Below, in pieces: positions 8,883 to 29,615 of a DNA stretch of 29,615 bases. How positions within the stretch are numbered: the first letter of the stretch is position 1; the number at the start of each line of letters is the position of its first letter. This DNA comes from Bacteroidota bacterium (GTDB lineage: Bacteria; Bacteroidota; Bacteroidia; Bacteroidales; Bacteroidaceae): positions 1 to 29,615 of the forward strand of contig JAEXAJ010000015.1 in assembly GCA_023458215.1 (NCBI GenBank). The letters are read 5' to 3'. The translations under genes and the position numbers were made by a program. Below the pieces are notes generated by a model, which saw only the letters and a program-made list of their open reading frames with translations, was not told where the DNA came from and did no database searches.

Positions 8883-11800
8883 TTAACTGTTTTCTAACGT
8901 TTTTCCACTAACAAACTCTCCCGGCTTTATTCCAAACTGCTTCTGAAAACATTTCGCAAAATAAGACGGGTTGTTGAAACCAACCATGTAGCAGATTTCA
9001 TTAATACGGTATTTATTTTCTGCCAGCAGCGTCGCAGCCTTCTTTAGCCGCACTATTTGAATCAGTTCGTTAGGAGTAATATTAGCCAATGTTTTTATTT
9101 TGGCAAATAATCCGGAACGACTGATGCACAATTGTTCTGCCAGGAAATCAACAGACAATTCCGGATTAGAGAAATTCTCTTCTATGATTTGGTTGATACG
9201 GGTAAGGAACTTACTATCCACCGTATTGCTGGCGATGCTATTCAGTGGCACCATCGGCATATTCGAGAACTTCTGACGCAACAAGTTACGCAAATCAAGA
9301 AGATTCTTGATACATGCTTCCAGGTATTGTACAGAGAAAGGTTTCTCAATATAAGCGTCCGCACCGCAATCCATGCCTTCTATCTTCGAGTTGATATCCG
9401 TTTTCGCTGTCAACAGAATAAACGGGATATGGCTGATAGCTTGGTCGGAACGCAGTGTCTTGCAAAACTCAACTCCATCCATGCGCGGCATCATCCAGTC
9501 ACTCACAATCAGCGTGACATCGTTCTCTTTCAACTTTTCTAAAGCTTCTACCCCATCTTCCGCCGTCAGGATGGAATATTGATTAGAAAAGCTACTTGAA
9601 AGGAAGTTTAGCATTTCTTCGTTATCATCTACAATCAGCATCAGAGGCTTACTTTTTGTGGTAACTTCCGGCAAACTTTCCTGCAAGATGTCTTCGGGTA
9701 GCATGGAGTTGATAACGCCGGGAGTTCCCTCCTGTGCTTTGTCAACAGACTGTTCTATTGGAAATGTTACAATAAAAGAAGAACCTTTGCCAACCTCAGA
9801 CTCCACTTCTATACATCCGTTATGCAATTCGATAATGCTCTTTACAATGCTCAGCCCGATACCCGTACCGGGTTTATTGTCCATAGCCTGATAAAAAGGT
9901 TTGAAGATTTTCTGCTGCTCTTCCTTACTGATTCCTATTCCGTTATCAGTGACCCTGATTACAAATGTATGCTGTTCGGACTGCACTTTACACGACAGCA
10001 CCACTTTGTCTTTGGTATATTTGCTGGCATTAGTCAGCAGATTGCTTATCAGTTTGGTAACCGCCTCACTATCTACCATCGCCGTAAAGTCCGCATCGGG
10101 ATATTCTACTTCCAAATGGGCACCATGCTGGGTAATGAAAGGTTTAAACCGCACACATACGGCTTCGAGCAGTTGACGAATGTTCTGTGATGCATATCTC
10201 ATCACCATGTTTTCTTGCTCTACTTTGCGGAAATCCAACAATTGATTAACGAGAAACAACAGCCGCTGACTATTGCGATCAATAATACTCAAATCATTAT
10301 GCAGCGCTTCGGGCATTTGTATGGACGACTTCATAATCTTCTCCAAAGGCCCTATAATCAACGATACCGGAGTACGTATTTCATGTGCAATCATGGTGAA
10401 GAATTTAATCTTCGCCTCATGTACTTCCTTCTCTTTATTTACGTTTAGTTGAGTGATCTCTGCTGTATGCTTCTTTTCCGAACGTTTCAGCAGGAATCGG
10501 ATAAAGAAAGTGAGAGATATACACAATAAAATGAAATATAATATTTTTGAGAATGTATTCCAGTAAAATGGCGGATGAATCACAATTTTCAGATTTGCCT
10601 CCTGTTCGTTCCAAACTCCATCATTATTAGTGGCCTTCACTTTAAAGACATATGTTCCGGGAGGCAGGTTGGTGTATGTTGCCTTATTCTGCGAACCCAC
10701 GTAGTTCCAGTCTTTGTCAAAACCTTCCAACATGTAGGCATATCGATTTTTTTCAGGCGTACAATAACTCAACGAAGCGTAAAGTAAACTAAACACATTA
10801 TCTTTGTAGGAAAGTTCCAATTGCTCCGTTTGGTTCAACGCTTTCGGCAGCATTTCATTTCCTATCCTGATTTCCTTATTGAAAACCTCCAAACCGGTGA
10901 TTACGACCGGAGGTATTACTTTATTCATTTTAATCTGATAAGGATAAAAGGCGTTGAAACCACTTACCGAGCCAATATAAATTTTCCCATCGGATGCCTT
11001 CAAGGCAGAATTCTGAAGGAATTGTTCACTTTGCAGTCCATCGCTTTTGGTAAATACCTGACAACCTTCTTGGGGAGTATAGCGTACTAATCCGCGGGTA
11101 GTGGTCAGCCACAAAACACCTTGATCTTCGATGATACTACAAATATTCCGACTGGGGATATCTAATGCTATTTGCTCGAACACATCTTTATTAGGATTGT
11201 ATTTACAAAGACCCGCCATGGTAGCAATCCACATGTCACCGTTACTATCCACATGAGTACAATTTACCTGATTACTCCCCAATTCGCCGGCTTTACCATT
11301 GTCAGTATAATTCTTCCAAATTTGCATTTCCGGATCGTATTTAAACAATCCTCTACCCTGAGTTGAAAACCAAAGATTTCCTTCCCTGTCTTCATCTATA
11401 TCTATGGTCAATGCTCCGAGTGTTTTTACACGGATAAAGTTATCCTCCTGCCTATTATATAAGTTGACTCCTGACATTGACGCAACCCAAATCCTTTTTT
11501 TACTGTCTTTGAAGATGCTATATGAGCTACTCCCATCTAATGAAGAAAGGTCGTTTGGGTAGGTGGTATATACCTTAAATACACCCGTCTTTGTATTCAA
11601 CACATTAACCCCACCCGTATATGTTCCAATCCATAAATCATCATTGTCCATGCAAAGTGCATGCACATTATGATAAGATAAACAGTTACGACTATCATTA
11701 GGTATGTAATGAATAAATCGCTTATCGTTGGGTGAATAACAGTTCAAGCCACCGTCATCCGAAGCAATCCAAATATTTCCACGAGCATCTTCACAGAAGC

Positions 11801-12869
11801 CACTGATAACAGTTCCACTTACCGAATTGGAATAACGTGAGTGAGCGAAACTCTCAAACTGTCCAGTATTAGCCGGGATATAGTTTACTCCACCATAATA
11901 GGTACCTATCCACACGCCTCCTTCTCTGTCTTTTACAATAGGATAAACAAATCGATTGGATAATGCATTGGGGTCTGACTCATTCTCTGTGAATAAATGG
12001 TGCTCACCGGTAGTAGTATTAAACAATAAAAGTCCATCATCCGACCCTATAAGCAATTGATTAGGTCCATATTCTATCAACGAATGGATATGCTTAGTAC
12101 CTTTACACCCGGTAGGATGTAAGTATGTAGTGACCTTTCCGGTATACTTATCCAACTTCTGCAAGCCACAATCCCAAGTCCCCAACCAAAGGGTATGGGA
12201 CGAATCCTCCAAAATAGCAAGCGAACTGGAGTTCTGTCCCGCAGTTTCATAGTGAAGATTGAATGGTTCGAATTTATTCTCGGCTTTATTCAACTTGGCT
12301 ACACTCGGACTTCCCCAATTGGTAATGGTCCATATCTGGTTCTCACTATCAACCATAACATTCGCCATCAATCCGTTAGCACTTTTGAACTCATACTGTT
12401 CCAATACATTATTCTTCCGGTTGTATTTGAATACTCCCTGTCCCACAGTGGAAAACCATAAATTACCATCTTTATCTTCTGTGATATTGTTCACTGTGCA
12501 AGTGACGCTTACCTGCCGGGAAGTAGCCACCGAAAACGCCGTGAATGTTTCGGTTTCATAATCAAACAGATACAGACCGCTATCTGTACCAATCCAAATA
12601 TTTTCGCCGGCATCGAATAAGGCGGATACATACTCATTCGAGCCGGGAATATTAAGTTTGTATAGTTTTACAGCAGTACCATCATATCGGTTCAATCCAT
12701 CATCAGTTCCGAACCACAGAAAACCATATTTATCTTGCAAAATAGCACGCACCGAGTTAGACGACACGCCATCCTCTACAGAGAAATGTCGAAATCGGAA
12801 ATTACCGGATGCTGCAAATAACAGTATCGGTAACAGTAAATTCAGGAGTATAATACTAAATGATCTCAC
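8883..12869 (-). CDS. Hybrid two-component system regulator (HTCS) of the PUL
   Basis: This 1328-residue one-protein sensor-regulator has a signal peptide (1-20), about 14 Reg_prop beta-propeller repeats (about 25-645, with recurrent GNLWF/IWIGT strands) and a Y_Y_Y domain (about 690-765). One membrane helix (773-795) is followed by a HisKA domain with His829 in FFTMIAHEIRTP and a HATPase with NASKY, DNGIGI and GTGIGLSIV. A receiver domain carries Asp1124 (VSDWMMP), and an AraC-type DNA-binding domain covers about 1220-1323. Such proteins sense a glycan fragment in the periplasm and activate their PUL. The start codon is GTG: a stop lies four codons upstream, and the signal peptide begins at this codon. 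It is the last gene of the locus, 58 bp after the DUF6055 gene and in the same direction. Confidence 0.97.
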   Translation of the reverse strand: MRSFSIILLNLLLPILLFAASGNFRFRHFSVEDGVSSNSVRAILQDKYGFLWFGTDDGLNRYDGTAVKLYKLNIPGSNEYVSALFDAGENIWIGTDSGLYLFDYETETFTAFSVATSRQVSVTCTVNNITEDKDGNLWFSTVGQGVFKYNRKNNVLEQYEFKSANGLMANVMVDSENQIWTITNWGSPSVAKLNKAENKFEPFNLHYETAGQNSSSLAILEDSSHTLWLGTWDCGLQKLDKYTGKVTTYLHPTGCKGTKHIHSLIEYGPNQLLIGSDDGLLLFNTTTGEHHLFTENESDPNALSNRFVYPIVKDREGGVWIGTYYGGVNYIPANTGQFESFAHSRYSNSVSGTVISGFCEDARGNIWIASDDGGLNCYSPNDKRFIHYIPNDSRNCLSYHNVHALCMDNDDLWIGTYTGGVNVLNTKTGVFKVYTTYPNDLSSLDGSSSYSIFKDSKKRIWVASMSGVNLYNRQEDNFIRVKTLGALTIDIDEDREGNLWFSTQGRGLFKYDPEMQIWKNYTDNGKAGELGSNQVNCTHVDSNGDMWIATMAGLCKYNPNKDVFEQIALDIPSRNICSIIEDQGVLWLTTTRGLVRYTPQEGCQVFTKSDGLQSEQFLQNSALKASDGKIYIGSVSGFNAFYPYQIKMNKVIPPVVITGLEVFNKEIRIGNEMLPKALNQTEQLELSYKDNVFSLLYASLSYCTPEKNRYAYMLEGFDKDWNYVGSQNKATYTNLPPGTYVFKVKATNNDGVWNEQEANLKIVIHPPFYWNTFSKILYFILLCISLTFFIRFLLKRSEKKHTAEITQLNVNKEKEVHEAKIKFFTMIAHEIRTPVSLIIGPLEKIMKSSIQMPEALHNDLSIIDRNSQRLLFLVNQLLDFRKVEQENMVMRYASQNIRQLLEAVCVRFKPFITQHGAHLEVEYPDADFTAMVDSEAVTKLISNLLTNASKYTKDKVVLSCKVQSEQHTFVIRVTDNGIGISKEEQQKIFKPFYQAMDNKPGTGIGLSIVKSIIELHNGCIEVESEVGKGSSFIVTFPIEQSVDKAQEGTPGVINSMLPEDILQESLPEVTTKSKPLMLIVDDNEEMLNFLSSSFSNQYSILTAEDGVEALEKLKENDVTLIVSDWMMPRMDGVEFCKTLRSDQAISHIPFILLTAKTDINSKIEGMDCGADAYIEKPFSVQYLEACIKNLLDLRNLLRQKFSNMPMVPLNSIASNTVDSKFLTRINQIIEENFSNPELSVDFLAEQLCISRSGLFAKIKTLANITPNELIQIVRLKKAATLLAENKYRINEICYMVGFNNPSYFAKCFQKQFGIKPGEFVSGKTLENS

Positions 12870-12927: not shown

Positions 12928-14247
12928 TCAGTAAGAATAATCCGGTTGGCTATTCTTTATTCTAATTTGATAAGGCCATTGCGCATCTTTCCCTTGAGTA
13001 TCAGAATTCATCCAATGCTCTGTAGGGGCTCCCATTACAAGTAAATATAGATGTGCCAGTTTTTCATTCGAAGGAGTGACAAATTTCACCGTCCCCTTCT
13101 TGCTTTGTTTCATCTCGCCATAGATAGACTTGCCTTCATTAGTAATTCCTATTAAACCATATCTCCAGCCCGCCTTATCTTTATATCCATCTTCAGCCAC
13201 CAAGCCTTGAAAAGCAACCTCAACAGTTTTCCCTGCTTCAGGTACAGACAAAGGGATAGTATTGAAACCATAGTTCTCAGGACAGTTTTCTGTTGCTACC
13301 TTAAACCATCCTTTTTTACTCTGATTCAGTTTGCAGGCGTATTTATTGGCATAAGGACGAGTGGCTTCCCATACACGTGGAAAATCCCAGTTTATGAAAT
13401 GACGATAGGCATCAAACATTTCATCACAGAATTGTGCCTGACTAAGTCCGGTAATACGCTTATAGGTAATGACCGGGTCTTCTCCCTTTTTACCTTGACG
13501 ATAGAGTTCTGCAATGAGTTGCAATCCTCGTTTCATTCCCCAGTATTCCAAGACATAGGGAGAATGATAAATATTTTCCATGTGCAGGTATGCTTTATGA
13601 GTCAATTTCATAAAAGCGTCCCAATGGTATTTTTCATCAGTAATCCATTCGGGATTTACTTGCCACAACATCCATTGCGAGGTCATTTCAAAGAAGCCGC
13701 AGCCGCCCCAAGCTTCCCCCTCATCGTCACAGGATATTTGCGCCTGAAAGCTATGCCCAAGTTCATGAGCAATGCAATTCAGTTTTTTATCCTGTATCCG
13801 ATTGGGAGCAACCCATAATGCGCCAATCTCACCGTCATAATCTCCACCGTAAGCAGTTCCTTCCAAAGAATAATTCAACATTACCATCATACGATATTTA
13901 TCGCATTTGGAACCCGGTTTACTGAATTTCAGTGTATCACGAAAAAAACGATAGAAATGCTCTAACTTCTCCTCCAAATTGGGCAAGTCTACTTGCATGT
14001 CACGTCCTTCCAACTGCGGAGGATTTGCTAAATCTTTTCCAAAGCCTTTCTCCCAGAAAATAACAAAGTTCTCTGTACAAGCCATGCGATGGTAACTCCA
14101 TTTGCTTTCAGGATCATTAAGATCCATACCCTGCAAATCTTTCGGAATATAGATTGTTTTACCTTCGGAAAGAACGGGCTGTTGAGCCGAAAGAGAGTTT
14201 CCGGCTAACAGTCCGATCAAAAGAAATATATAAACATGTAGTTTCAT
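12928..14247 (-). CDS. DUF6055-type exported protein with HExxH motif, putative metallopeptidase
   Basis: This 439-residue protein has a Sec signal peptide, probably cut after NSLSA, and no lipobox, so it should be periplasmic or secreted. The core has IGALWVAPN, then the zinc-type motif HELGH (161-165), and 22 residues later GGCGFFEMTSQW, whose Glu187 is a likely third ligand as in gluzincin peptidases. A C-terminal beta-rich domain (about 310-432) ends in QWPYQIRI. It is clearly homologous to the larger protein at 18086-20434, which keeps HEIGH, the GGC-x-x-E-x-x-x-QW motif and the C-terminal domain. The gene is 12 bp after the GH146-type gene, so probably cotranscribed. Peptidase activity is my inference from the motif; the DUF name is from memory. 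Confidence 0.85.
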   Translation of the reverse strand: MKLHVYIFLLIGLLAGNSLSAQQPVLSEGKTIYIPKDLQGMDLNDPESKWSYHRMACTENFVIFWEKGFGKDLANPPQLEGRDMQVDLPNLEEKLEHFYRFFRDTLKFSKPGSKCDKYRMMVMLNYSLEGTAYGGDYDGEIGALWVAPNRIQDKKLNCIAHELGHSFQAQISCDDEGEAWGGCGFFEMTSQWMLWQVNPEWITDEKYHWDAFMKLTHKAYLHMENIYHSPYVLEYWGMKRGLQLIAELYRQGKKGEDPVITYKRITGLSQAQFCDEMFDAYRHFINWDFPRVWEATRPYANKYACKLNQSKKGWFKVATENCPENYGFNTIPLSVPEAGKTVEVAFQGLVAEDGYKDKAGWRYGLIGITNEGKSIYGEMKQSKKGTVKFVTPSNEKLAHLYLLVMGAPTEHWMNSDTQGKDAQWPYQIRIKNSQPDYSY

Positions 14248-14259
14248 TCAATATAGGGT

Positions 14260-16605
14260 TTATTTTTCCTTCTTCATTAATCTACAATTATAAATATTGC
14301 TCACACGAGTTTTATCATTAGCACGGAACATGATCCTTACCTTGTCTTTGCCTTTCGTTACTTCCAGCGGGATGTTCACCGTATGTTCTACAAATCCTTG
14401 AGTAGTATCCGTGAGACTAACCGGCTGTACCCAATCGTCAATCACAACGTCGAACGTATATTTCCGGCTATCACCGCCATAATAAGTCAATAATAACTCC
14501 ATGGGTTGATCGTAACCACATTTCATATCGAATGTAAACCAGCCGTTTTCGTAAGCGAAACGATATTTACGCAGATAACCTTCTCCGTTACGAGTGTTTT
14601 CTCCTTGAAGATTATGATCCCGTTCGGGTTGCATTTCACCAAAAACGATGTAATCTGTGGTCATTTTATCCAGTTTGGCTATGCGTTCTAACTCAGCCTT
14701 GCGTTTTTCTTCAATGGCCTTCCATTCGGCAGGCGAGTATACATCCCAATAAACGGTCTGATAATCATCTGCTACTTTATAGAAAGGAGTCATTTTAATT
14801 CCATCGGGTCCGCCGGGCAAAGTGGTAACAAAATTGAGAGGATGCTCACTCGTTTTTTTGATATAGTTCGTCAGGCTCTTCTCTTCAGATACAAATACAG
14901 GGATATCTCCCATCTTCCGTTCTTCTGTGCCGAAAGTTCCTGCCAAAATGGTCGGTCCGTAGAAGACTGCACGGCGATCAGGATTGTCGGGCATCGCTAC
15001 AGTATAGAGAGGCATTGGCAACACCATTTCTATCACATCCCCTTTTTTCCAACGACGATTGAGGCTGATGAAGGAACCGGGAGTAGTTGTTACTTTTTGT
15101 TTACTACCATTGATACGTACAGTCACCTCATCGGCTGCCCAAGCCGGACGGCGCAGATTAATGGTAAGCGGTTGCTTCGATGCTTCCTCCAGCTTGATCA
15201 TCACTTTACCGTGTTCAGGATAATCAGTGATCATGCGGAGTTTCAAGTTTTTCTCTTTCCATGTTAATACAGAGGGGATATAGAGATTTACGTTCATCGT
15301 CTCTTCACCAGGCACATAACTATAGATGGCTCCACCATACTTGGAATGGTTCTCAAACCCACTACCCATGCAACAACTGAAGTTATTGTCCCGGCTACCA
15401 AAGCCTTTATGTGTGCCCATTCCTAATGAAAGGAAATAGCAGACATTTCCTGTTTCGGGATGCTGTGAAGCTAGAATATGGTTGTACAGTGCCCGTTCGT
15501 AATAATCGAGGTATTGCACGTCGTTCGTCCACTCATAAAGGTGTCCGGTCAGTTTCAACATATTGTAGGTATTACAAGTTTCACAGGTATTACTACCTAG
15601 ACGGTCACTCAGTTTGTCGGGTACTGAGAGATATTCGCCCATACTGTTTCCACCATTGGCATAGGAATGGTGGTGAACAATGGTTTCCCAAGAGAAACTG
15701 GCTATTTTCTCATCACGCAAGTTTCCGGTCAGCTCATATTGACGGGCACTACCTATCAGTTTAGGAATTTGAGTATTAGAATGCAGACCTTGCAAAGCAT
15801 CTACACCTTCGGCCAATTTATCCTGCAAACGCTTATGATAGAAAGCGTAGGAGGCATTAAGGTATTTCTTATCTCCGGTCAAAGCATACACTTGTGCGAA
15901 AGCTTCGTTCATACCGCCATATTCACAATTCAGCATGGTCTGCATCTGTTCTTCATTCAATGGAGCAATGACATCTGCCAAGTAGTCAGACAAGTTGATT
16001 AATACTTTCTTCGCAGTTTCGTTTCCTGTCAAGAGATAAGCATCGTTCAGCCCCATCATTGTTTTGTGCTCATTGTACCAAGGTACCCAAATGCCATTCA
16101 AGTCAAAACCCATGGAGCGGATAATCCCTTTCTTTACCTCCTTGAATACTTTATCACCACCAGGCATTCCACCAATAAAACCGTTGACAAAGTTCATCTG
16201 GCAAGAGTCCAGCTCATTGACCACATAGTTTATCTTGGTCTTAAAAGTCTCATCACCCGTAGCGGCATAATGCTGTGCCATGGCAGTAAGCAAATGTCCC
16301 AACGTATGTCCGGCAATGCCCATGGATTCCCAACTACCGTAAGGTTCTGCTTTCGGTTTCAAGTTCGCATTCTTGCGAAAGTTGGATAGCAGACGATCCA
16401 AATCCAGTTCATTCATCCATTGGGCATTAAGCTCCATGGCGTGAAGGAAGGGGCTGTCGAGGAGACGGACATCAGAAATGGCAAAGTACTTGGCCTTGGC
16501 AGGCACATTATTCTTAACTACTACGGGGTTGCACTCTCCGCAAGCATTGGATTGGTTAGAAATTCCGAAAAGAGTCAGAAATAGTATAATCAGTTTTATT
16601 TTCAT
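14260..16605 (-). CDS. GH146/GH127-type beta-L-arabinofuranosidase
   Basis: This 781-residue exported enzyme starts with a signal peptide (probably cut near SNA-C). The (alpha/alpha)6 catalytic region (DUF1680) runs to about residue 430, with beta domains after it and a DUF6805-like C-terminal beta-sandwich (about 665-775). The residues of zinc- and thiolate-dependent beta-L-arabinofuranosidases are in place: Glu324 (GEYLSVP), Glu342 and Cys344 in CETC, and the Cys411-Cys412 pair in FSCCMG; one Cys of the pair is the expected nucleophile. The CETCNTYNMLKLTGH form and 781-residue length resemble GH146 more than GH127, a distinction made from memory. It removes beta-L-Araf from oligosaccharides, here probably in the periplasm. 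It lies 46 bp after the CotH gene. Confidence 0.9.
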   Translation of the reverse strand: MKIKLIILFLTLFGISNQSNACGECNPVVVKNNVPAKAKYFAISDVRLLDSPFLHAMELNAQWMNELDLDRLLSNFRKNANLKPKAEPYGSWESMGIAGHTLGHLLTAMAQHYAATGDETFKTKINYVVNELDSCQMNFVNGFIGGMPGGDKVFKEVKKGIIRSMGFDLNGIWVPWYNEHKTMMGLNDAYLLTGNETAKKVLINLSDYLADVIAPLNEEQMQTMLNCEYGGMNEAFAQVYALTGDKKYLNASYAFYHKRLQDKLAEGVDALQGLHSNTQIPKLIGSARQYELTGNLRDEKIASFSWETIVHHHSYANGGNSMGEYLSVPDKLSDRLGSNTCETCNTYNMLKLTGHLYEWTNDVQYLDYYERALYNHILASQHPETGNVCYFLSLGMGTHKGFGSRDNNFSCCMGSGFENHSKYGGAIYSYVPGEETMNVNLYIPSVLTWKEKNLKLRMITDYPEHGKVMIKLEEASKQPLTINLRRPAWAADEVTVRINGSKQKVTTTPGSFISLNRRWKKGDVIEMVLPMPLYTVAMPDNPDRRAVFYGPTILAGTFGTEERKMGDIPVFVSEEKSLTNYIKKTSEHPLNFVTTLPGGPDGIKMTPFYKVADDYQTVYWDVYSPAEWKAIEEKRKAELERIAKLDKMTTDYIVFGEMQPERDHNLQGENTRNGEGYLRKYRFAYENGWFTFDMKCGYDQPMELLLTYYGGDSRKYTFDVVIDDWVQPVSLTDTTQGFVEHTVNIPLEVTKGKDKVRIMFRANDKTRVSNIYNCRLMKKEK

Positions 16606-16651
16606 CTTAATTAGAGTGTGTTAATAATTGAAGTTTTACAAAAGAGTTCTC

Positions 16652-17944
16652 CTACTTGCTGCCTGTCGGATAACCCTTGATTACTGTATCTAAATAGTCA
16701 ATGCGTTTCTCTAACCATTGCTTCATGCGCGATAGCTCCACAGCAAAGCTCTTATCAATGGGCCAGCGATCTGCATTACGTCCCATAGCGCGGAAGCAAG
16801 ACTCTTCATAAATAGAGATTTCTTCCCAATACTCCTTCATAATTTTTCCTTTAACCTCAGTCCAACGTGCCTTGTATTCTTTCACAAAGCGCTTGTTATT
16901 AAAGAGATCAGTAAAGAAATTAGGTATATGGTAGCCGCCCGTATGATTCACCGGATCAGTGCCCAATACAAGTTCTTTGTAACTAGTGAAATAGTTATGT
17001 CCAGTGTACATAGTCCCCCAGTCGAAGTCAAATCCAGCATCGAAATCCCAAAGTGGCCCCATGGTCCAAAGCCCGTTTTTATCTTTATGCATATAGATGC
17101 TGCGTGGAGCATCCACTTCCACATTATACACCAGTTCCTGTATCAGCATATAATCTATGAACGAAGCAATATTCATCAGTTGGGCGATTGTTTCATAATT
17201 GCCTTCACGTATATTCTGCTCCAACTTGGCAAAGTCATCCTGAACCACTTTCAATTGTGCAGTAGTAGCCTCTTCAGGATATTTCACACAAATAGGCATC
17301 CGATAAATTGTCGACCAGAAATTATCTCCCCCATTCGGATTCAGTTCCGGTCCGTCATCCGCATCCAGCGAAATTAGTATTCCTTGTTCATCATCTACCG
17401 CTACGCGGCTACTACCTTGTTCCACTTGCTCGGTCAACTGATAAAGTCCGATATACTCACCATTCAGTGTAACTTCTACATAACGAGAATGATTAGTAAA
17501 AGGCAAACCTAACTTCTCACCTACAATAAATGTGAAGTTATTCATCATTTGGGTCGGATCACGATAGTTGGCAAGAAGCACCCAATCCTTTTCAGCGGCC
17601 AGTCCAAGTATTTCAGACTTTTTATCTAACTTAATGCGATATGGTTTCTTCGGATACCAGAGCCAAGTAGAATTTCCACGCCCGCGAATGCGTCCTGTTC
17701 CTGTATAATCCCACTCTTCATCTTCAGAGTCAATGATGAGGGTGCAGTTCACATAGTCTTCCTTATCCTTCCCCACAATAGGCGCAGCGTTTTCGGTGTC
17801 GATGGTTAGTTGAGCGACTTGATACATGAGAGGTAATGGAATTTCTGGAACTGGTGGACAAGGGTCAATAGTCTCCGAGCCATCAGAGCAGTTTGCAAAA
17901 AGCAAGGATAAACAGATTAAACCAAATAAATTTGAATATTTCAT
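16652..17944 (-). CDS. CotH-family lipoprotein
   Basis: This 430-residue protein has a lipoprotein signal peptide with lipobox LLFANC (Cys19), followed by SDGSE, which favours export to the surface. The body is the CotH kinase-like fold: RGRGNSTW (87-94) with KKPYRIKLD, then KDWVLLANYRDPTQMMNNFTF, NGEYIGLYQLTEQV, and the C-lobe NVEVDAPRSIYMH and GPLWDFDAGFDFDWG. CotH proteins include spore-coat protein kinases, and related folds can do other AMP- or phosphate-transfer reactions; fungal CotH proteins are surface adhesins. An ATP-dependent kinase outside the cytoplasm would lack ATP, so its job here is unclear. It sits in the PUL after a 141-bp gap with hairpins, and 46 bp before the GH146-type gene. 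Confidence 0.88.
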   Translation of the reverse strand: MKYSNLFGLICLSLLFANCSDGSETIDPCPPVPEIPLPLMYQVAQLTIDTENAAPIVGKDKEDYVNCTLIIDSEDEEWDYTGTGRIRGRGNSTWLWYPKKPYRIKLDKKSEILGLAAEKDWVLLANYRDPTQMMNNFTFIVGEKLGLPFTNHSRYVEVTLNGEYIGLYQLTEQVEQGSSRVAVDDEQGILISLDADDGPELNPNGGDNFWSTIYRMPICVKYPEEATTAQLKVVQDDFAKLEQNIREGNYETIAQLMNIASFIDYMLIQELVYNVEVDAPRSIYMHKDKNGLWTMGPLWDFDAGFDFDWGTMYTGHNYFTSYKELVLGTDPVNHTGGYHIPNFFTDLFNNKRFVKEYKARWTEVKGKIMKEYWEEISIYEESCFRAMGRNADRWPIDKSFAVELSRMKQWLEKRIDYLDTVIKGYPTGSK

Positions 17945-17969
17945 TCACCTATACGTTTTAAAAGTTTAA

Positions 17970-18034
17970 AACTGTTTTGAATTTCATACATTCTTATTCT
18001 GAGGAAAAAGAGTTGAATAAAATTCAAAACAGTT
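17970..18034. repeat. 15-bp perfect inverted repeat in the operon gap
   Basis: AACTGTTTTGAATTT (17970-17984) is matched by its exact complement at 18020-18034 across a 35-nt loop. Beyond a one-base bulge the stem can grow by about five more A/T pairs (TTTAA...TTAAA). It lies in the 141-bp gap between the DUF6055 lipoprotein gene and the CotH gene, the longest gap inside the operon. In RNA it would form one large hairpin just ahead of the CotH start, which could set mRNA ends or stability; as DNA it could be a regulator site. Confidence 0.65.
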
Positions 18035-18048
18035 CTTAAATGAGATTC

Positions 18049-18071
18049 AAAAACTGCCATTATCAATGGCA
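18049..18071 (-). terminator. Small terminator-like hairpin after the DUF6055 lipoprotein gene
   Basis: On the minus strand a 6-bp perfect stem TGCCAT-TGATA-ATGGCA (18055-18071) is followed by G and five T (18049-18054), starting 15 bp after the stop codon of the gene at 18086. This is the form of a weak intrinsic terminator. It would reduce, not necessarily stop, transcription into CotH, GH146, DUF6055 and regulator genes. Confidence 0.5.
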
Positions 18072-18085
18072 AGCGAATCCTTATA

Positions 18086-20434
18086 CTACTCTACAATAAA
18101 ATTAAATTTAAGAGTAGCAATGTATTCTTTGCCATTCTTGGTATAAACAAGTTCAACAACTTGAGGATAAGTTTGTCCAGCAGTGATAGCACCTGGCATA
18201 AAGCCTACTTCCATGTCGTAAATCGTATGAGCCTTGGTATAGGTTCGAGCTTCTTTACCCCATGCTTGAGGTTCGCCAGCTGCATTACACCAAAATCCAC
18301 CTAACTCACCATTACTATTGTCTTCGTAACTATAAGTACCATTAGGTAATTTCAAACGCATACAGATTTTTCCTTCAGCCAATCCCTTAGAACTATGATG
18401 CTGAATTGCAGCTATATCTTCCGGCATCAGACAAAAAGCATGGCAAATAGCTGCATTATCGTAGTAAGCGATGTTATAGCGAGCAAATTCATAAGATGAA
18501 GCAGCTGTACCGCGGACATTAATAGTCATTTCCACATTTTTAGGAGTAGCGTTCGGATCAAGTACCACTTCTATTACATCATTATACTTTTCCAGATCAG
18601 TGCCACTTAAAGTAATAGTGTAAGGCCATTGTTCATCATCAGCTTCCTTATCATTCCAGTATTGACGGTTGTATTCATTGGGAGCAGCCATCACTACAAA
18701 GTAGAGTTCACTAGTACCAGCAGGCACTCTGTAAGAAGCTGTACCTTTGGCACCTTTACTCATTTCTGAATAGGTCGGTTTACCGTTTACTATAGCTACA
18801 TAACCATAACGATAGTTGGATGAAGTGTTTTTCGAAGCGTTGTAGGCCGTAGTTTTAGCTACAACTTTTCCATCTCCATCCACCTGCTCACCTTTATCCC
18901 CTTTGGCAAGAGCGCTTCCAGAAGCAAGGGCGTTAATTGTGGTAGAAACAGTAGTACCGGCAGCAGGCACTTTCATTTTAATAACATTGAAGCCGGTAGT
19001 TCCGGGACAACTTGCATAACCCACCTGATATTTGAGGTCACCCACTCTGTATAAGTCAGTACTGTAATCGCCTTTCACTTTAGCAGGTACAGTCACCGGC
19101 TTTTTATCATTATTGGCAAACTTTAAGTCATAATACACCATACGTGAAGCATAATCATAAAGGTCAGCATAAAGAACATCCTGATTATTATTGCAATATA
19201 CACGTTGATAAGTCTGTAGTGGATCTTCCGGGAATTCCGAATCACGCCAAATACGTCCATAAGCACTGATGCCATGTTTCTCGACCCATGTGTGTTGCAA
19301 CCAATAACTTGCATAACGCATCCATTCATGATTGAAGTGGCGGTGGCAGTTTTTCTTCCAAACATCAAGGTTATAGTTGAACATTTCTTCGGGATAATCA
19401 ATTTGAGCCTGCCATTGTGCACACTGTTCCCAATAAGCACAACCTCCAGCACCATCAGGACCAAAGCCATAGCGAAATCCATGATGCAAATCAGCCAAAG
19501 CTCCCTGTTTGTTCACTTTATCAGCATAAACTTGATATTGGAATGAGTGACCTATCTCGTGAGCAATAGTAGAACCTACAGGATGGCAAGTAGACGGATT
19601 TACCCAAAGTGCACCAATTTTATCATCATACCCAGAACCAGTAGCAAGCCATTCGTCCTGATAAATCAAATAAATCTGCATTTTATAGTCATCAAGCATA
19701 GATTTATCTTGCCCAAGGGTAGCCATACCAAGAGTATTAATATTAGTTTTGAAATATTGCTCAGCTTTCTGAAGCAAATCATCAACATCCACCCACATTC
19801 CACTAGTATGATTGTCCGGAGAATTAGGATCGTTTCCAAACTCAGGTGACCAAAAAACAAAGAAGTGTTCACTCTGTTTCATGCGATGCCATGAATAGTA
19901 ACTGTCATGACGAAGCATATATTCAGGACCTTTTTCAAAGTGAGGATTTCCTACACCGGGACAAGTGTATTTTGCATAATCTTTAATATCGGCAGGTTTA
20001 AGATACAATACTTTGTACTTCTGAACCAACTTAATAGCTTGTGACTGACCTTTCACGGTAGAGATCGTAACAGTGGCAGAACGATCTTTGGCGGTGTCTT
20101 CGTACTCCTGCATGGTCACTGTCAGTTTCAACTCTTCACCTGCTTTGCCTTCAGCAGGTGATACACTAGCCCATGAACAGGCATTACCTTCGGCATCTAC
20201 AATGGCAACAGCCCAGTCCATATCACTCTTGAAGTTGATTTCCAAAGTCTTGTCCTCAGCTTCAACCGCATAATCGGCCTCCGTACCTGTAATGGAACCT
20301 TTATATCGAGGATCATAATCAGCTGCACGTTTTGACATATCGTCATCCGCACATGAAGTAGTGAGAAGCGATGTTCCACTAACAGCCATCAGCATAGCTG
20401 CAAGGTAGAAATAGTGTCGTATATTGCTTTTCAT
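18086..20434 (-). CDS. Surface lipoprotein with BACON-like, DUF6055 HExxH and DUF4859 domains
   Basis: This 782-residue lipoprotein has lipobox LTTSC (Cys28) followed by ADDD, a strong Bacteroides surface-export signal. The order is: a BACON-like beta domain (about 45-142), which often binds glycan or mucin; the DUF6055 region with IGALWVNP and HEIGH (292-296); 40 residues later GGCAYWEQCAQW, with Glu336 as likely third zinc ligand; a beta domain (about 545-625, ending WPYTITL) shared with the paralogue at 12928-14247; and a C-terminal DUF4859 module (about 650-782) with GGFWCNAAGEPQAWG. It lies 33 bp after the DUF4859 lipoprotein gene. I infer a surface metallopeptidase or glycoprotein-processing enzyme tethered to its target by binding modules; activity is unproven. 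Confidence 0.88.
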   Translation of the reverse strand: MKSNIRHYFYLAAMLMAVSGTSLLTTSCADDDMSKRAADYDPRYKGSITGTEADYAVEAEDKTLEINFKSDMDWAVAIVDAEGNACSWASVSPAEGKAGEELKLTVTMQEYEDTAKDRSATVTISTVKGQSQAIKLVQKYKVLYLKPADIKDYAKYTCPGVGNPHFEKGPEYMLRHDSYYSWHRMKQSEHFFVFWSPEFGNDPNSPDNHTSGMWVDVDDLLQKAEQYFKTNINTLGMATLGQDKSMLDDYKMQIYLIYQDEWLATGSGYDDKIGALWVNPSTCHPVGSTIAHEIGHSFQYQVYADKVNKQGALADLHHGFRYGFGPDGAGGCAYWEQCAQWQAQIDYPEEMFNYNLDVWKKNCHRHFNHEWMRYASYWLQHTWVEKHGISAYGRIWRDSEFPEDPLQTYQRVYCNNNQDVLYADLYDYASRMVYYDLKFANNDKKPVTVPAKVKGDYSTDLYRVGDLKYQVGYASCPGTTGFNVIKMKVPAAGTTVSTTINALASGSALAKGDKGEQVDGDGKVVAKTTAYNASKNTSSNYRYGYVAIVNGKPTYSEMSKGAKGTASYRVPAGTSELYFVVMAAPNEYNRQYWNDKEADDEQWPYTITLSGTDLEKYNDVIEVVLDPNATPKNVEMTINVRGTAASSYEFARYNIAYYDNAAICHAFCLMPEDIAAIQHHSSKGLAEGKICMRLKLPNGTYSYEDNSNGELGGFWCNAAGEPQAWGKEARTYTKAHTIYDMEVGFMPGAITAGQTYPQVVELVYTKNGKEYIATLKFNFIVE

Positions 20435-20467: not shown

Positions 20468-21472
20468 TTACTCGAAAGTTGCGTTCAAGAGGAACGACAT
20501 CGCTTTTTGTTTATCGGGTGTAGCCAAACCGAATTTAATCGTCATTGTGGTTCCCGATACAATACCCGGAGCACGTCCAATAGCCATGCAAGCAGGACTA
20601 TCTTCCTCTGCCAGCCAAGGTTCGATAAAGTAAGAGAAGCCTGCTGCCCCCCAAGCACAAATCTCGTTATTAGCAGTACACCAGTAACCACCGTTATTGG
20701 CAGTAGAAGTACCATCCCATACATACGCATTGGTTCCAAGGTTCATCATATAGGTTTTTACTGCACCATCGGAAACAGCTGCAACCAATGCGGCAGGAGT
20801 AATGCCAAATACATAATTGATATTTTCAGCCACACTCTCGAATGTCAACGAATAAGCACTATAGTCACCGGCAGGAATCGTCACATCCTGAATGATGAAG
20901 CTCTTATCAAATACAGTCATAGCCATAACGAAACGAACAGCAGTATTGTAGTTAGGTCCTTCGAGAGCAAACCCAAATTCTACCGAAGCTGCACCACCGG
21001 CATTACCATCGGGGTAAAAGTTGAAGCATTTGGCTGCAGCATCGAATTCAATAATACCATAGAGGGATTCATCATCAGCCTTACATACATTACCGTTCTT
21101 ATTTACATACCAACCATATTTCTTTCCTTCCACGTTAGCTTTGGCTTTGTTCCACACATTACGTGAAACATTAATGGGGCAAACAGCCACCTTTCCGCTT
21201 TCAATAGCACTCATCAATTCGTCTACTGTCATACCTAGCTGTTTTTGTATGACAGTTTCATGTTCTTCAATATTAATAGTAGCAGGAATTGGATCGCCTG
21301 CTTTCTTATCAAAAGCATTGGTTACAGTTCCTTTTTCATCAGTTTTCACGGGTGGGTTTTCATTCGGACCGTATACATGGATTCTTGTAGCATCTGTATA
21401 TTCTTCATTGCAAGCGGTCGTCATAAACAACGCACCACAAATTATCAGTGTATAGATTAATTTCTTTTTCAT
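20468..21472 (-). CDS. Surface lipoprotein with two DUF4859-like modules, putative glycan-binding protein
   Basis: This 334-residue lipoprotein has lipobox MTTAC (Cys21) followed by NEEYTD. Two related modules follow. Module 1 (about 70-205) has LGMTVDELMSAIESGKV and YGWYVNKNGNVCKADD. Module 2 (about 206-334) has FGITPAALVAAVSDGAV and GGYWCTANNEICAWG. Both resemble the C-terminus of the large lipoprotein at 18086-20434, so three copies of the module exist in the locus. No catalytic motif is seen. The gene is 6 bp after the SusD gene, the usual place of a surface glycan-binding protein (SusE/F position), and the aromatic and Cys-rich loops could form a ligand site. The DUF4859 name is from memory. 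Confidence 0.85.
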   Translation of the reverse strand: MKKKLIYTLIICGALFMTTACNEEYTDATRIHVYGPNENPPVKTDEKGTVTNAFDKKAGDPIPATINIEEHETVIQKQLGMTVDELMSAIESGKVAVCPINVSRNVWNKAKANVEGKKYGWYVNKNGNVCKADDESLYGIIEFDAAAKCFNFYPDGNAGGAASVEFGFALEGPNYNTAVRFVMAMTVFDKSFIIQDVTIPAGDYSAYSLTFESVAENINYVFGITPAALVAAVSDGAVKTYMMNLGTNAYVWDGTSTANNGGYWCTANNEICAWGAAGFSYFIEPWLAEEDSPACMAIGRAPGIVSGTTMTIKFGLATPDKQKAMSFLLNATFE

Positions 21473-21478: not shown

Positions 21479-23173
21479 TTATTTTGCGGTTGTATAACCA
21501 GGGTTCTGAACTAAGTTAGGATTGGCATCCAGATTATCCTGCAGGATGGGGAAGATATCAAGATGGTGATCGTTCGGATTAGTGTTGGCACTTTTGCCGA
21601 ACCATGACTTACCATTGAATACATTACATCCATTAGTCATCTTGAAGCGGATAAGGTCTTGACGACGGTGATGTTCATACACAAACTCCCAAGCCAGTTC
21701 ATCAAGCAAACCACCGAGAATGATATCATCACCTCCTTCGTTAGTAGTAATAATCTGAATATTGGTAAGGTTCTTGTTATCATCAAGTGTACCTTGTGTT
21801 TCGCGTAATCCGTAATCGTATACGCTACCACCTTTCAGTTGGGCAACGGTACGGACTGCTTTTTCAGGATTGTCCTTGAATGCACGACGACGAATCATCG
21901 TTACGATATCTGCTGCATCCTGTTCTGTCTCACCCTTATATCCGCCCAGACGAAGTAAACATTCAGCTTTTATAAAATAAGCATCTGTCAAACGGAAGAA
22001 AGGCACATTGTCATCACTAGTACCAATGTTACCCGGCTGAATTTCATAAAGCCATAGACGAGCACCCTGATAATCACCTGCACCCGGTTTTTCAATAGCC
22101 CATACTTCGGGAGTAAGGTTTACCTCTTTACCGTTATCATAGAGGATATTGCCTTGTTGGTCACGCTGAACACCCCATTTCCAAGTATCAGCCTTACGAG
22201 AGTCATCTTTATCATAAGTATTAAAGAATTGCGGTACGCAAGCACTACCATTCCAAGGGTCGAAGGAAACACCAAATACGTCCTTACAGATGGCAGGAAA
22301 CCATTTACAGAAGTGATTTGTACCATGACCGGCATATTTATTACTATACATCAGTTCAAAAATATTTTCCTTGCTTCCGGCTACTGAGAAAGGCTCACGA
22401 TAACTTGCAGCCAATGTATAAGCACCATCATTAATGACCTCATTCACTTGATCGATAGCCATACCGTAGTATTTATTATCAGGAGTATCGGGGAACCAGG
22501 CATCATGGTTCAGGTACATTTTTGCCAGCAGCATGCAGGCACCATAGTAATTTAGTTGCCCTTTTTCCACTTCTTTGGTAAGCAATGGTTTAGACTCTTC
22601 TACTTCTTTCACAATAAAATCGAAAGTAAACTGTGGAGTTTCCTGTTTCGGCATATAATCGGCTGGTAGTTTCAAAGTAGTCGTTACAGGAATATTACGA
22701 TGCAAATCGAACAATACATAGTAGAATAGCGCACGGAAAGTACGCAACTCGGCTACTGCTCTGTCATTACTACTGATGGCCTCATCGTCAAGCAACTGAT
22801 TGCAAGAGTTTATACCTTGATAACAAGAGTACCAAGGACGGTAAAGATGATTGATGGTAGGATGGAATTCATGCTTGTGTAATGAAACATACTGTGCACC
22901 CCATCCTCCATAAGTACGGTAAGGGGTCATAATCAAGTCACCACACTCTTGACTAATGTCCATATAACCTTCCCAACCATCGTACATATCACGTAAACGG
23001 TCGTAGATTACACCATATTGAGCCGCTATCTCTGTTTCGGTAAATTCGTAGCTACCATCACCGGGGAGCTCACTATATAAGGTTTCACTCAAATCAGTAC
23101 AACTGCCTAACAGGATAGAACCTGCAAATAACATACCGATAGCACCTTTTTTAAATATCGTATTGTATTTCAT
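21479..23173 (-). CDS. SusD/RagB-like outer-membrane lipoprotein
   Basis: This 564-residue lipoprotein has lipobox LLGSC (Cys25). The N-terminal part (YGVIYDRLRDMYDGWEGY, AELRTFRALFYYVLFDLHRNIP) and the C-terminal part (FFRLTDAYFIKAECLLRLGG, LLDELAWEFVYEHHRRQDLIRF, then FPILQDNLDANPNLVQNPGY) are textbook SusD/RagB sequence. It should bind the target glycan at the surface and cap the SusC partner encoded 22 bp upstream. The next gene starts only 6 bp downstream, so SusC, SusD and the DUF4859 lipoprotein are very probably translated from one mRNA. Confidence 0.97.
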   Translation of the reverse strand: MKYNTIFKKGAIGMLFAGSILLGSCTDLSETLYSELPGDGSYEFTETEIAAQYGVIYDRLRDMYDGWEGYMDISQECGDLIMTPYRTYGGWGAQYVSLHKHEFHPTINHLYRPWYSCYQGINSCNQLLDDEAISSNDRAVAELRTFRALFYYVLFDLHRNIPVTTTLKLPADYMPKQETPQFTFDFIVKEVEESKPLLTKEVEKGQLNYYGACMLLAKMYLNHDAWFPDTPDNKYYGMAIDQVNEVINDGAYTLAASYREPFSVAGSKENIFELMYSNKYAGHGTNHFCKWFPAICKDVFGVSFDPWNGSACVPQFFNTYDKDDSRKADTWKWGVQRDQQGNILYDNGKEVNLTPEVWAIEKPGAGDYQGARLWLYEIQPGNIGTSDDNVPFFRLTDAYFIKAECLLRLGGYKGETEQDAADIVTMIRRRAFKDNPEKAVRTVAQLKGGSVYDYGLRETQGTLDDNKNLTNIQIITTNEGGDDIILGGLLDELAWEFVYEHHRRQDLIRFKMTNGCNVFNGKSWFGKSANTNPNDHHLDIFPILQDNLDANPNLVQNPGYTTAK

Positions 23174-23195: not shown

Positions 23196-26100
23196 TTAGA
23201 AAGTTACATTCATACCTACAGTGAATGAACGTACAGTAGGATATTTATCACGACTGTCTACGCCGGCGGTCCAAAAGTTGTTACTGCCGAGTTCCGGGTC
23301 GGTTCCCTTGTACTTAGTGATTGTAAACACATTGTCTACACTACCATAGAAGCGTATATTTTTTACATAAGCACTTTTCTTTAAGTCATAAGTATAACCC
23401 AAAGTCATGTTGGTTAGTTTCAAATAATCACCATCTTCTATGTAATAACTAGTTACGACCTGTGACTGTTGTGTCGAGAGCGAGCGAATACCACCAATTG
23501 CATCGGCTGCTGATTTCAACTTATTGTATGCGTGAGCATTATTTTCATAGAACACACGTTGTTGGTTGATAATCTTATAGCCAAACTGACCGGTGAACTG
23601 CATAGTCAGATCAAAATTTTGATAGCGGAATGTATTATTCCATCCCATAGAGATTTTGGGAATACCATTACCCATGCGTTGATACCAGTTGTCGCGGTCG
23701 TTACGCATTTCCTGATAAAATTCGGCAACTTGACCAGTTTTTGGATTTTCAATTAAGAACATACCTGTTTTTTCAGATACACCTACTGCTTTCAGTGAAT
23801 AGATTTCACCGAAACTTTTGCCTACCTCAACTTTGTGGGTATACTGACTCACGGGGTCACCTACACCTTGCTGCCAAAGAATATTCTCTGTCTGATAAAG
23901 GTCATTGGAAAGACTTACCAGTTTATTGGCATTGTGTTGCATTGTCAATGTAGTATTCCATTCAAAATTTTTGGTTTGAACAGGAATAGCGCGTAACATA
24001 ACCTCGATACCCGAATTGCGCATTTTACCTACATTAGCCAAGGTAGAAGTATACAAGTTTGGAGGACTGGGAACGGCATAATCATAAAGCATATCCGAAG
24101 TATTCTTTACATAGAAGTCTACAGAACCACCCAAACGTTCATTCAATACACCCCAGTCCAAACCTACATTGAACTCTTTAGCAATCTCCCATTTTAAATT
24201 AGGATTGGCATTTGATAATGCTTTCAAACCTTTCCCCCATTTTCCGTTACGGTAATAATTACCACCGGAATAACTATAGCGAACGATAGATTGATAAGAA
24301 CCACCCGGAATAACACCAGTCATACCATAACCGGCACGAAGTTTCAAATTATTCAACCAGTTACCTGTTGATTCCATAAACTCTTCATTCATGATATTCC
24401 AACCCAAAGAAACAGAAGGGAAAGCACCCCACTTATGGTTGGCACCAAACTTGGAAGAACCTTCGTAACGAACAGAAGCTAAAATATTATAACGATCATC
24501 GAAGCCATAGCTAATACGGGCAAAGGTACCAATCAGCGTCGATTCTGTTTTCGAACTGCTCATCGAAGCCTTACCATCAGTAAGATATTCACCGGCACCT
24601 ATGTTGTGGTAACTAAAGTAATCAGTCGGGAAATTGGCATTCCACATACCTGCACTTTCATAAGTATTCTTTGACCAACTGTAACCTATCATACCTTCAA
24701 AACGGTGTTTGTCGGCAAATGTAGTATGATATTTAGAAGTCAATTCCAAGTAATCGGTACGATTATAATTATCACTCAAACTTGCTTCACCGGTCAGGTT
24801 ACCAATGGCGGTAGTGGTGTGATATTTGGTGTTGTATGAACCAGTCTTACCTACCGAACGGTGACTAGCCAACATTAAGTTAGTTTGCCATCCCTTAATA
24901 GGCTCAAAAGTTACATTTCCGGTAATTCTAGTGCTTATTTCCTTTGTTTCACCTGTACTTTCATTCTGTAACGAAACGGGATTGTAGTATTGTAGTAGTG
25001 AACGTTCATTGTAAGAGCCGTCTTCATTCCAAATAGGAGAAGTCGGATTTCGAATCACAGCTTGTCTATAAATTTGCGTAAGACTATTTACTCCCCAAGC
25101 ATCATACTTATCTAAATACTTATAATTGTCTTGTACAATGTTCAGGTTTACCTTCAACATATTATTGAACATCCAATGATTTACATCAAACGACAAACTT
25201 AAGTCTTCATGACCTGATTTCTTCATTACTCCTTGCTGATTTCGATAAGTTATATTACCGTAATAAGAGGTAGTAGAAGAACCGCCTGAGATAGAAAAGC
25301 TATGATTATGTGTTACACCTGTGCGACTCACGGCATCTAGCCAATCGGTGTCGGACCCTTCATCATTATATTGAGTCTTTCCTGCACGAATATCATCAGG
25401 AGTCATGAAGTCTGCCTTTTTGGCCCAATTAGAGAATGAGACGTAACCAGAATAAGTGGCAGTCGCTTTCTGTTCACGCAAGCCAGTCTTGGTAGTGATA
25501 AGAATAACTCCACCTGCACCTCGTGTTCCATAAATAGCGGCAGCGGAAGCATCTTTCAACACATCAATAGAGGCTATATTTTCAGTGGGAACAGTACCCA
25601 TATCACCAGGGACACCGTCGATCAGCACCAACGGAGAAGCATTACCTGATACGGAAACAATACCACGAAGGCTGATTTCAGTACCAACATTGGGGTCACC
25701 CGAAGGTTTGGCAATGGTCAAACCTGCCACTTTACCTTTTAGCAAATCACCTGCATTGTTGAAATTACCAACCAAGAAGTCTTCGGCTTTCACACTGGCA
25801 ATGGCACTTGTTACGTCACCCTTTTTCTGCGTACCATAACCGATAACTACTACTTCATCCAGTAATTCAGTATCATCGGCCAAAGTTACATTGATCTTCC
25901 GTTGGGAGCCTACTGCTATTTCCTGAGTCTTATATCCAATGTAAGATATTACTAAAATAGAGTTTGCTCCTTTCACTTTCAGTGTGTATTCACCATCAAT
26001 ATTAGTGATTACGCCATTTGCAGTTCCTTTCTCCAAAATATTGGCACCTATAATAGGCTCACCACTCTTGTCTTTTACTACACCGGTAACTGTAACAGTC

Positions 26101-28719: not shown

Positions 28720-28961
28720 TATATATATGTTTTAATTCATTAGCATTAGCGATGCGGCAAAGGAAAGGATTTAGTAGCTAATAACATAAAACAATAATCT
28801 ATTAGGATGCCAAAATAGTCGGACTTCTATACGAGAGAAGAAGATTTAGACTATTATTGGGTCGATTGGACTATTTTAGTATCGTTGTATCGAGACTAGC
28901 ATAAGGAGGGTATTGGATGTTAATAGAAAAGTTACTTCCCATTAATTAAGTCTGTTTCCTG
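28720..28961. promoter_or_regulatory. Promoter-proximal leader region of the GH127-led PUL
   Basis: This is the A+T-rich upstream region of the minus-strand operon, with no gene. On the minus strand TTCCTTTG at 28758-28765 is one base off the -7 consensus TAnnTTTG and lies about 40 bp before the start; no good -33 box is seen. Three related GACTATT sites follow further upstream (separate entry). The exact promoter cannot be fixed by eye. Confidence 0.4.
28810..28879. promoter_or_regulatory. Three GACTATTwTwG-like sites, candidate regulator operator
   Basis: Two direct copies on the plus strand, GACTATTATTGG (28849-28860) and GACTATTTTAG (28869-28879), start 20 bp apart, about two helical turns. 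A third, inverted copy CCAAAATAGTC lies at 28810-28820. They sit 90-160 bp upstream of the first PUL gene. AraC-type domains, such as that of the HTCS encoded at the end of this operon, often bind direct repeats about two turns apart, so this is a plausible operator. The repeats are seen; the binding is inferred. Confidence 0.4.
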
Positions 28962-29030
28962 CATTCAGCGTCTTCAGCCTTCTGCATCTCCCTGACAAAA
29001 GGCGTTTCGGCTGAAAGCGGGGCTGAATAA

Positions 29031-29038
29031 TAGGTTTG
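29031..29038 (+). promoter_or_regulatory. Promoter-like -7 box inside the inverted repeat
   Basis: TAGGTTTG matches TAnnTTTG on the plus strand, just inside the left arm, pointing away from the PUL. A TTTC at 29005-29008, 22 bp upstream, could be a poor -33 box. A single short match can arise by chance, so confidence is low. Confidence 0.25.
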
Positions 29039-29613: not shown

Positions 29614-29615
29614 GG

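Follow-up and report, generated by a model that had tools for sequence, protein, structure and literature searches.

Two DUF6055 gluzincin-like proteins in a Bacteroidaceae polysaccharide-utilization locus with a probable role in the breakdown of extensin-type glycoproteins

RESULTS

Two DUF6055 genes in a SusCD operon

The DNA considered here (the window) is a 29,615-nucleotide stretch, contig JAEXAJ010000015.1 of assembly GCA_023458215.1, from a Bacteroidota bacterium of the family Bacteroidaceae. It contains a run of nine minus-strand genes, with intergenic gaps of 6–141 bp, that encode, in order, a glycoside hydrolase family 127 (GH127) enzyme, SusC, SusD, a lipoprotein with two DUF4859 matches, a BACON–DUF6055–DUF4859 lipoprotein, a CotH-family protein, a GH146-type enzyme, a second DUF6055 protein and a hybrid two-component sensor (HTCS). 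The SusC–SusD pair, the co-directional enzymes and the sensor mark the operon as a SusCD polysaccharide-utilization locus (PUL). Our subject is the pair of DUF6055 proteins encoded by the fifth and eighth genes (782 and 439 amino acids), which an original prediction, made from the sequence alone, had read as paralogous gluzincin-like peptidases of a possible extensin-degrading system.

Both proteins exceed the 27-bit cutoff of PF19527 (DUF6055), the 439-residue protein with 517.7 bits over positions 4–415 of the 417-position model (the match stops at residue 435) and the 782-residue protein with 428.3 bits over positions 22–416. A BLASTP alignment of the two shows 29% identity across 443 columns (E = 4e-50), whereas among the matches listed each has database relatives up to 88–89% identical. 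The two are thus paralogs, as had been proposed, but not the products of a recent duplication. The nearest named genomes, judged by the 439-residue protein, are those of Phocaeicola sartorii (82% in the best segment of a gene that is in pieces) and Bacteroides oleiciplenus (78%); of 251 genomes sampled from the family to which the latter belongs, 115 have DUF6055. Loci akin to this one occur in B. cellulosilyticus DSM 14838 and B. oleiciplenus YIT 12058. The P. sartorii gene (locus L020, 6409–7771) is of the periplasmic type and is surrounded by HTCS and GH27 genes; it lies in three pieces, through either real decay or a sequencing error. In two other loci (L110 and L112) the DUF6055 proteins are ∼1080 residues long, and the ∼570 residues ahead of the peptidase domain match almost nothing in Pfam.

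As read by eye, the N-terminus of the 439-residue protein is Sec-like (LLAGNSLSAQQ) and that of the 782-residue protein lipobox-like (LLTTSCADDD; across 52 aligned sequences C28 reaches a conservation of 90% or more), in agreement with the earlier assignment of one Sec signal and one lipobox. The zinc motifs are HELGHSFQ (HELGH at residues 161–165) in the 439-residue protein and HEIGHSFQ (HEIGH at 292–296) in the 782-residue protein, exactly the shared HE(L/I)GHSFQ that had been noticed. A second shared motif, GGCGFFEMTSQW and GGCAYWEQCAQW, supplies a glutamate, E187 and E336, respectively. The motif and its numbering were correct in the original prediction, but three residues rather than two separate GGC from the glutamate (GGC-xxx-E-xxx-QW). 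H161, E162, H165 and E187 are identical in all 302 aligned sequences: the two window proteins, 60 from related loci and 240 database proteins, these last being the best 120 of 2594 and the best 120 of 1836 matches, a choice in which the most distant relatives are under-represented.

Predicted fold and active site

A search of the PDB by sequence with the 439-residue protein gave no match at E up to 1. Structure prediction, which had been suggested as a check, gave a confident model (Table 1) in which HELGH lies in a helix spanning residues 157–173 and E187 in a separate helix spanning 184–197. The model has a gluzincin fold: its structural matches include lugdulysin, M1 aminopeptidases and aureolysin, as well as ZmpB, ZmpA, BT_4244 and the mucin peptidase AM0627. 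The region from residue 307 on is rich in strands, in agreement with the C-terminal beta domain that had been described. Chains of carbohydrate-binding modules CBM22 and CBM29 are also among the matches, and from their size and the strands we take them to correspond to this C-terminal region. For the model of the 782-residue protein, Foldseek returned mainly immunoglobulin-like matches (pilus chaperones, a xyloglucanase), which are uninformative on the peptidase or DUF4859 parts.

The invariance of the four positions, the fold match to several gluzincin families and the drop in activity on glutamate mutation in the relative Svx (below) support the gluzincin assignment. The 439-residue protein is a predicted periplasmic gluzincin peptidase with E187 as the third zinc ligand, and the 782-residue lipoprotein a predicted surface gluzincin peptidase with E336 in that role. 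Every available test agrees with the reading of the pair as DUF6055 gluzincins in a SusCD PUL.

Other genes of the window

The positions of the nine genes and the evidence for each are collected in Table 1.

Table 1. Genes of the operon, with positions in the window
Gene product	Length (aa)	Position	Strand	Basis
GH127-family enzyme, first gene	812	26281..28719	-	PF07944, 381 bits; GH127 M and C domains
SusC/RagA TonB-dependent transporter	1017	23196..26249	-	TIGR04056, 748 bits (cutoff 368)
SusD-family lipoprotein	564	21479..23173	-	PF07980 and PF14322
Lipoprotein with two DUF4859 matches	334	20468..21472	-	PF16151, two stretches; CNEE after lipobox
BACON–DUF6055–DUF4859 lipoprotein	782	18086..20434	-	Pfam; alignment; model mean pLDDT 88.5
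CotH-kinase-family lipoprotein	430	16652..17944	-	PF08757, 158 bits
GH127/GH146-type enzyme	781	14260..16605	-	PF07944, 385 bits; DUF6805
DUF6055 protein, Sec-like signal	439	12928..14247	-	PF19527, 518 bits; model mean pLDDT 90.2
Hybrid two-component sensor/regulator, last gene	1328	8883..12869	-	Reg_prop, Y_Y_Y, HisKA, HATPase, receiver, HTH_18

The GH127 and GH146-type enzymes seen earlier are both present. The 812-residue protein, which has a lipobox-like N-terminus (GLSACNDAY), is a predicted beta-L-arabinofuranosidase whose PDB matches are, in order, 6ex6 (E = 2e-206), 4qjy, 5mqo and 3wkw; 6ex6 bears the label 'Six-hairpin glycosidase' in the PDB table, and we take it to be BT3674, an arabinogalactan enzyme of Bacteroides thetaiotaomicron. 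The 781-residue protein is a predicted periplasmic beta-L-arabinofuranosidase with 5opj as its best PDB match (E = 5e-158), presumably the GH146 enzyme BT0349. Pfam scans of 15 window proteins identified neither an endo-glycanase, whose apparent absence had been remarked on, nor an arabinogalactan backbone enzyme. The 334-residue DUF4859 lipoprotein occupies the operon position of a surface glycan-binding protein, and the 1328-residue HTCS, homologs of which occur in 18 of the 51 related loci described below, is likely to be the inducer sensor.

The operon does not appear to continue to the right, as positions 28720–29615 contain no open reading frame (ORF) of 100 residues and no match to a neighbor protein below E = 0.27. 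Upstream of the operon (28964–29613) are two three-copy tandem repeats with units of 23 and 22 nt, together with inverted sequences: a pair of 86 nt with 74% complementarity and, at the very end of the window (29521–29613), a repeat of 33 nt. All of these are perhaps mobile or regulatory. A plasmid comparison gave zero matches. Beyond the other end, a 435-residue GuaA-like protein (7491–8798, minus strand) matches only positions 1–76 of the 190-position amidotransferase model PF00117 and has a complete C-terminal GMP synthase domain, as might a shortened GMP synthase or a paralog. A partial second SusC/SusD-like pair followed by a 427-residue lipoprotein lies at 3–4829 on the opposite strand.

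Relation to Svx

Among the closest characterized systems is Svx of Pectobacterium and Dickeya, a zinc-dependent peptidase in which the substitutions E141A and E167A reduce activity 3.1- and 3.5-fold (PMC9266454, 2022). Svx of P. atrosepticum is reported to degrade a carrot extensin preparation and to leave gastric mucin and concanavalin A uncut, with its acyltransferase-like domain required for extensin degradation, and its authors modeled an alpha-galactosylated serine into the active site (PMC13164431, May 2026). The NCBIfam Svx model, NF040510, matches the two window proteins with 77.4 bits (E = 9e-22) and 41.0 bits (E = 1e-10) and also matches five of five further DUF6055 proteins scanned, always far under its curated cutoff of 625. 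The DUF6055 proteins are therefore distant relatives of Svx and not equivalogs.

The two groups share distant homology in the peptidase part, a gluzincin assignment, secretion, and an HExxH motif followed by a glutamate 21–22 residues on (here in the 439-residue protein). Unlike Svx, the window proteins occur as two paralogs in a SusCD operon, the surface protein carries BACON and DUF4859 and has its glutamate 39 residues on, and neither protein has a C-terminal left-handed beta-helix (acyltransferase-like) domain by Pfam at E = 0.001. Identification of either protein as an Svx thus fails on both score and domain content. The position of one DUF4859 lipoprotein as a surface binding protein, together with the fusion of DUF4859 to the peptidase, suggests that DUF4859 is a substrate-binding module, and DUF4859/BACON may replace the Svx domain needed for extensin.

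The Svx phylogeny section names only Gamma-, Alpha- and Deltaproteobacteria (PMC9266454), and the words 'Bacteroid' and 'DUF6055' are absent from the Svx papers PMC10815107 (2024) and PMC13164431 (2026). An Aspergillus DUF6055 protein has been assigned to peptidase family M106, with the domain called uncharacterized (PMC11241649, 2024). In the literature searched, one paper names DUF6055 and none names DUF4859, and we found no assay of a Bacteroides DUF6055 protein; three papers that mention both Svx and Bacteroides-type names along with peptidases deal, by their titles, with other subjects. Among the papers listed, judged by titles and the openings of abstracts and excluding preprints, none describes a Bacteroidota extensin locus; PMC7761036, where it mentions extensin, groups it with arabinogalactan linkages.

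Gene neighborhoods of DUF6055

Co-occurrence of DUF6055 with GH127/GH146 across Bacteroidota had been named as a check, and the sites examined are enriched for it. We used 36 DUF6055 sites in 24 Bacteroidota genomes chosen among those with DUF6055 and a distance of 15 kb, with expected values derived from uniform placement, rounded genome sizes and all family counts. Four of 40 DUF6055 rows (one 97-bit fragment and three of ≤22 bits) and 16 PF07944 rows (all ≤42.6 bits, split pieces or weak) were dropped. PF07944 (GH127/146), found near 21 of the 36 sites (1.19 expected), ranks first among the families counted. GH97 follows with 16 sites (1.64 expected), dipeptidyl peptidase IV (DPPIV, PF00930) with 11 (1.03 expected) and GH27 with three (0.40 expected), all three within 410 bp. 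The negative control, GH28 pectinase, is near none of the sites (1.04 expected), even within 20 kb. Note that positions of GH27, DPPIV, GH97 and GH28 were taken from contigs with a DUF6055 site and do not include every distant copy on large contigs.

As a second control, we scored at the same distance 137 SusC sites that lie away from DUF6055, in three of these genomes (139 of 142 rows used, the three on the second contig of one genome being omitted; 49 candidates per genome). PF07944 is near 10 of these, GH97 near five and DPPIV near two, and no site has both PF07944 and DPPIV.

Clustering of the proteins of 51 related loci, which include two duplicated places (L009/L124 and L021/L113), places PF07944-type proteins in 25, a GH97-type group in 13, GH43 in 12, DPPIV in seven and GH27 in five. 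We scanned 30 neighbors selected from these loci, a minority of the total, with Pfam. They include GH43 with lectin-like domains, DPPIV/S9 prolyl peptidase, the alpha-galactosidase families GH27 and GH36, GH97, GH42, M24 Xaa-Pro-type peptidases and DUF4859 proteins. Others are of doubtful bearing (EamA, HipA, GlmS-like, DUF5695, DUF885, M43, tricorn/S41, transposase and more), and two have zero Pfam matches. One GH97 neighbor is nearest to the retaining alpha-galactosidases 3a24 and 5e1q (E = 4e-201), with alpha-glucosidases following from 2e-66, and one GH27 neighbor is nearest to alpha-galactosidases.

The clustering also placed with DUF6055 13 proteins that lack a DUF6055-like BLAST match; the five that were scanned are GH97. 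This occurs because fusion proteins join the two groups. In 136 loci, DUF6055 is followed directly by GH97 in six distinct single-chain ORFs of 1062–1095 residues (L018, L019, L125, L127, L130 and L131), four of them from 12 places picked for a long open frame and two verified with Pfam. Two of the fusions score 718 and 765 against the NCBI retaining alpha-galactosidase model, close to but under its cutoff of 800, and the fusion compared with the PDB is nearest to 3a24. The joining of a peptidase to an alpha-galactosidase-type domain agrees, from unrelated evidence, with the alpha-galactosyl serine modeled by the Svx authors.

Two GH97 neighbors (L124:10173–12890 and L096:14458–17178) are extended at the C-terminus by a stretch that has an HEFAH motif and matches PF07737 below cutoff, and a 282-residue HEFAH protein stands alone at L095:7827–8672, for which a PDB search gave nothing useful. 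Related loci may contain a second kind of zincin peptidase fused to alpha-galactosidase-type GH97.

CotH is found in seven of the 51 loci and in seven of the 24 genomes, in only one of which is it near DUF6055 (two sites, by reading the table), and we dropped it as a defining part of the system. In Bacteroides timonensis, an M43-like metallopeptidase gene (L002:6929–8434) lies between the DUF6055 lipoprotein and CotH genes.

DISCUSSION

Extensins carry alpha-galactose on serine and one to five arabinofuranoses on consecutive hydroxyprolines (PMC5371791). A peptidase, beta-arabinofuranosidases, an alpha-galactosidase and proline-directed peptidases would thus form a fitting set of enzymes, and a GH146 from a bifidobacterium reportedly acts on arabinofuranose linked to hydroxyproline (PMC10850190). 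We consider it likely that the nine genes form an HTCS-controlled PUL for extensin-type hydroxyproline-rich glycoproteins. The support for the extensin part of the original prediction is indirect, coming from the cleavage of extensin by Svx and from the enrichment of DUF6055 loci in enzymes suited to the sugars of extensin and to a proline-rich chain.

Several observations weigh against this assignment. The Svx domain required for extensin is absent here, the operon has no alpha-galactosidase or proline-specific peptidase of its own (both occur in the loci of relatives) and CotH has no role in the scheme proposed below. In the neighborhood analysis, 15 of the 36 sites have no PF07944 within 15 kb (a few of them near contig ends), two of the 24 genomes have no PF07944 at all, and, because the genomes are related, the sites do not count as independent. 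Finally, the 812-residue GH127 may lean toward arabinogalactan, given that its best PDB match is 6ex6: BT3674 is reported to aid the degradation of larch arabinogalactan (PMC10850190).

This last point bears on an alternative in which the locus serves another beta-arabinofuranosylated plant target, such as arabinogalactan protein, rhamnogalacturonan II (RG-II) or arabinan ends, with the peptidases serving only to loosen or cleave the protein portion. BT0349, the presumed nearest structure to the GH146-type enzyme, acts on arabinan-derived oligosaccharides (PMC10850190), and the 812-residue protein scores 490 bits against the model for the RG-II enzyme aceric acid hydrolase (NF049879). That score is, however, well under the cutoff of 950 (the 781-residue protein scores 90.6 bits), the absence of GH28 pectinases within 20 kb of the 36 DUF6055 sites and of arabinogalactan backbone enzymes among the 15 window proteins argues against such targets, and the GH97 and GH27 alpha-galactosidases, DPPIV and peptidase–GH97 fusions fit extensin, with its galactosylated serines and proline-rich chain, better than arabinogalactan protein, RG-II or arabinan. 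We regard a different plant target as unlikely, although it is the strongest of the competing explanations.

It is much less probable that the DUF6055 proteins serve in binding or structure, with a retained zincin fold but no peptidase activity. The carbohydrate-binding modules among the fold matches and the lack of a published assay noted above would be consistent with this, but the invariance of four catalytic positions in all 302 sequences would not be expected of pseudoenzymes, and the related protein Svx is an active peptidase whose activity drops on mutation of either glutamate (PMC9266454). Least probable of all is a mucin-type system acting on host glycoproteins, to which the shared fold of the mucin peptidases ZmpB, ZmpA, BT_4244 and AM0627 might point: beta-L-arabinofuranose is a plant sugar and PF07944 leads the families counted near DUF6055, no sialidase, fucosidase or hexosaminidase was identified by Pfam in the 15 window proteins and the 30 scanned neighbors (a minority of all neighbors), and Svx does not cut mucin (PMC13164431).

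For the extensin assignment, we propose a scheme in which the PUL is probably peptidase-first. SusCD and the DUF4859 lipoprotein would hold the glycoprotein at the cell surface, where the 782-residue lipoprotein would use its zinc site to cut the glycosylated backbone, and the resulting glycopeptides would be imported through SusC. In the periplasm, GH146 and possibly GH127 would strip the beta-L-arabinofuranose chains, and the 439-residue peptidase would make further cuts in the chain once it is wholly or partly stripped of sugar. Relatives' loci would add alpha-galactosidases (GH97, GH27, GH36) that take galactose off serine, along with dipeptidyl and Xaa-Pro peptidases that complete the breakdown of the proline-rich peptide. 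We infer the substrate, the side of the outer membrane on which each protein acts and the order of the steps; the division of labor into surface cut, import and periplasmic finish is drawn from the N-termini and the general logic of PULs.

Besides Svx, the proposed system has parallels in three others. Like HypBA1/HypBA2/HypAA of Bifidobacterium longum and its Xanthomonas counterpart, it has a GH127/GH146-type beta-L-arabinofuranosidase suited to hydroxyproline-linked arabinans (PMC7263609, PMC6085000), and the GH43 of 12 related loci is a further likeness. Bifidobacterium, in contrast, is described as using a GH121 disaccharidase and an ABC importer in place of the peptidase pair and SusCD import; no GH121 turned up in our Pfam scans, although whether Pfam contains a GH121 model was not checked. 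With the gut mucin peptidases BT_4244, ZmpB and AM0627, which we take to be M60 peptidases, the DUF6055 proteins share the gluzincin fold by structural match and, as proposed here, a glycoprotein-cutting role, but neither has a Pfam match to such a family and their neighborhoods contain plant-type enzymes. The arabinan, pectin and arabinogalactan PULs of B. thetaiotaomicron (BT0349, BT1003, BT3674) are alike in SusCD, HTCS and GH127/GH146. Those PULs are not known to contain peptidases, and the present locus differs from them in having no pectinase.

Extensins are among the toughest plant cell-wall proteins, and our results suggest that gut bacteria have a dedicated route to consume them. Whether this extends to a widespread class of gut Bacteroidota PULs is a closer call, on which we lean only slightly toward yes: in such PULs, DUF6055 glycopeptidases would cut Ser-galactosyl/Hyp-arabinosyl backbones before deglycosylation, sometimes within a single peptidase–alpha-galactosidase chain, and DUF4859 would be a new Hyp-arabinan-binding module replacing the Svx beta-helix. 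If this is true, both DUF4859 and DUF6055, the latter a family whose function is not known, would acquire a role open to testing. A virulence peptidase of plant pathogens and the gut commensals would come under one catalytic theme, and glycoproteins would be added to the dietary-fiber substrates that PULs handle.

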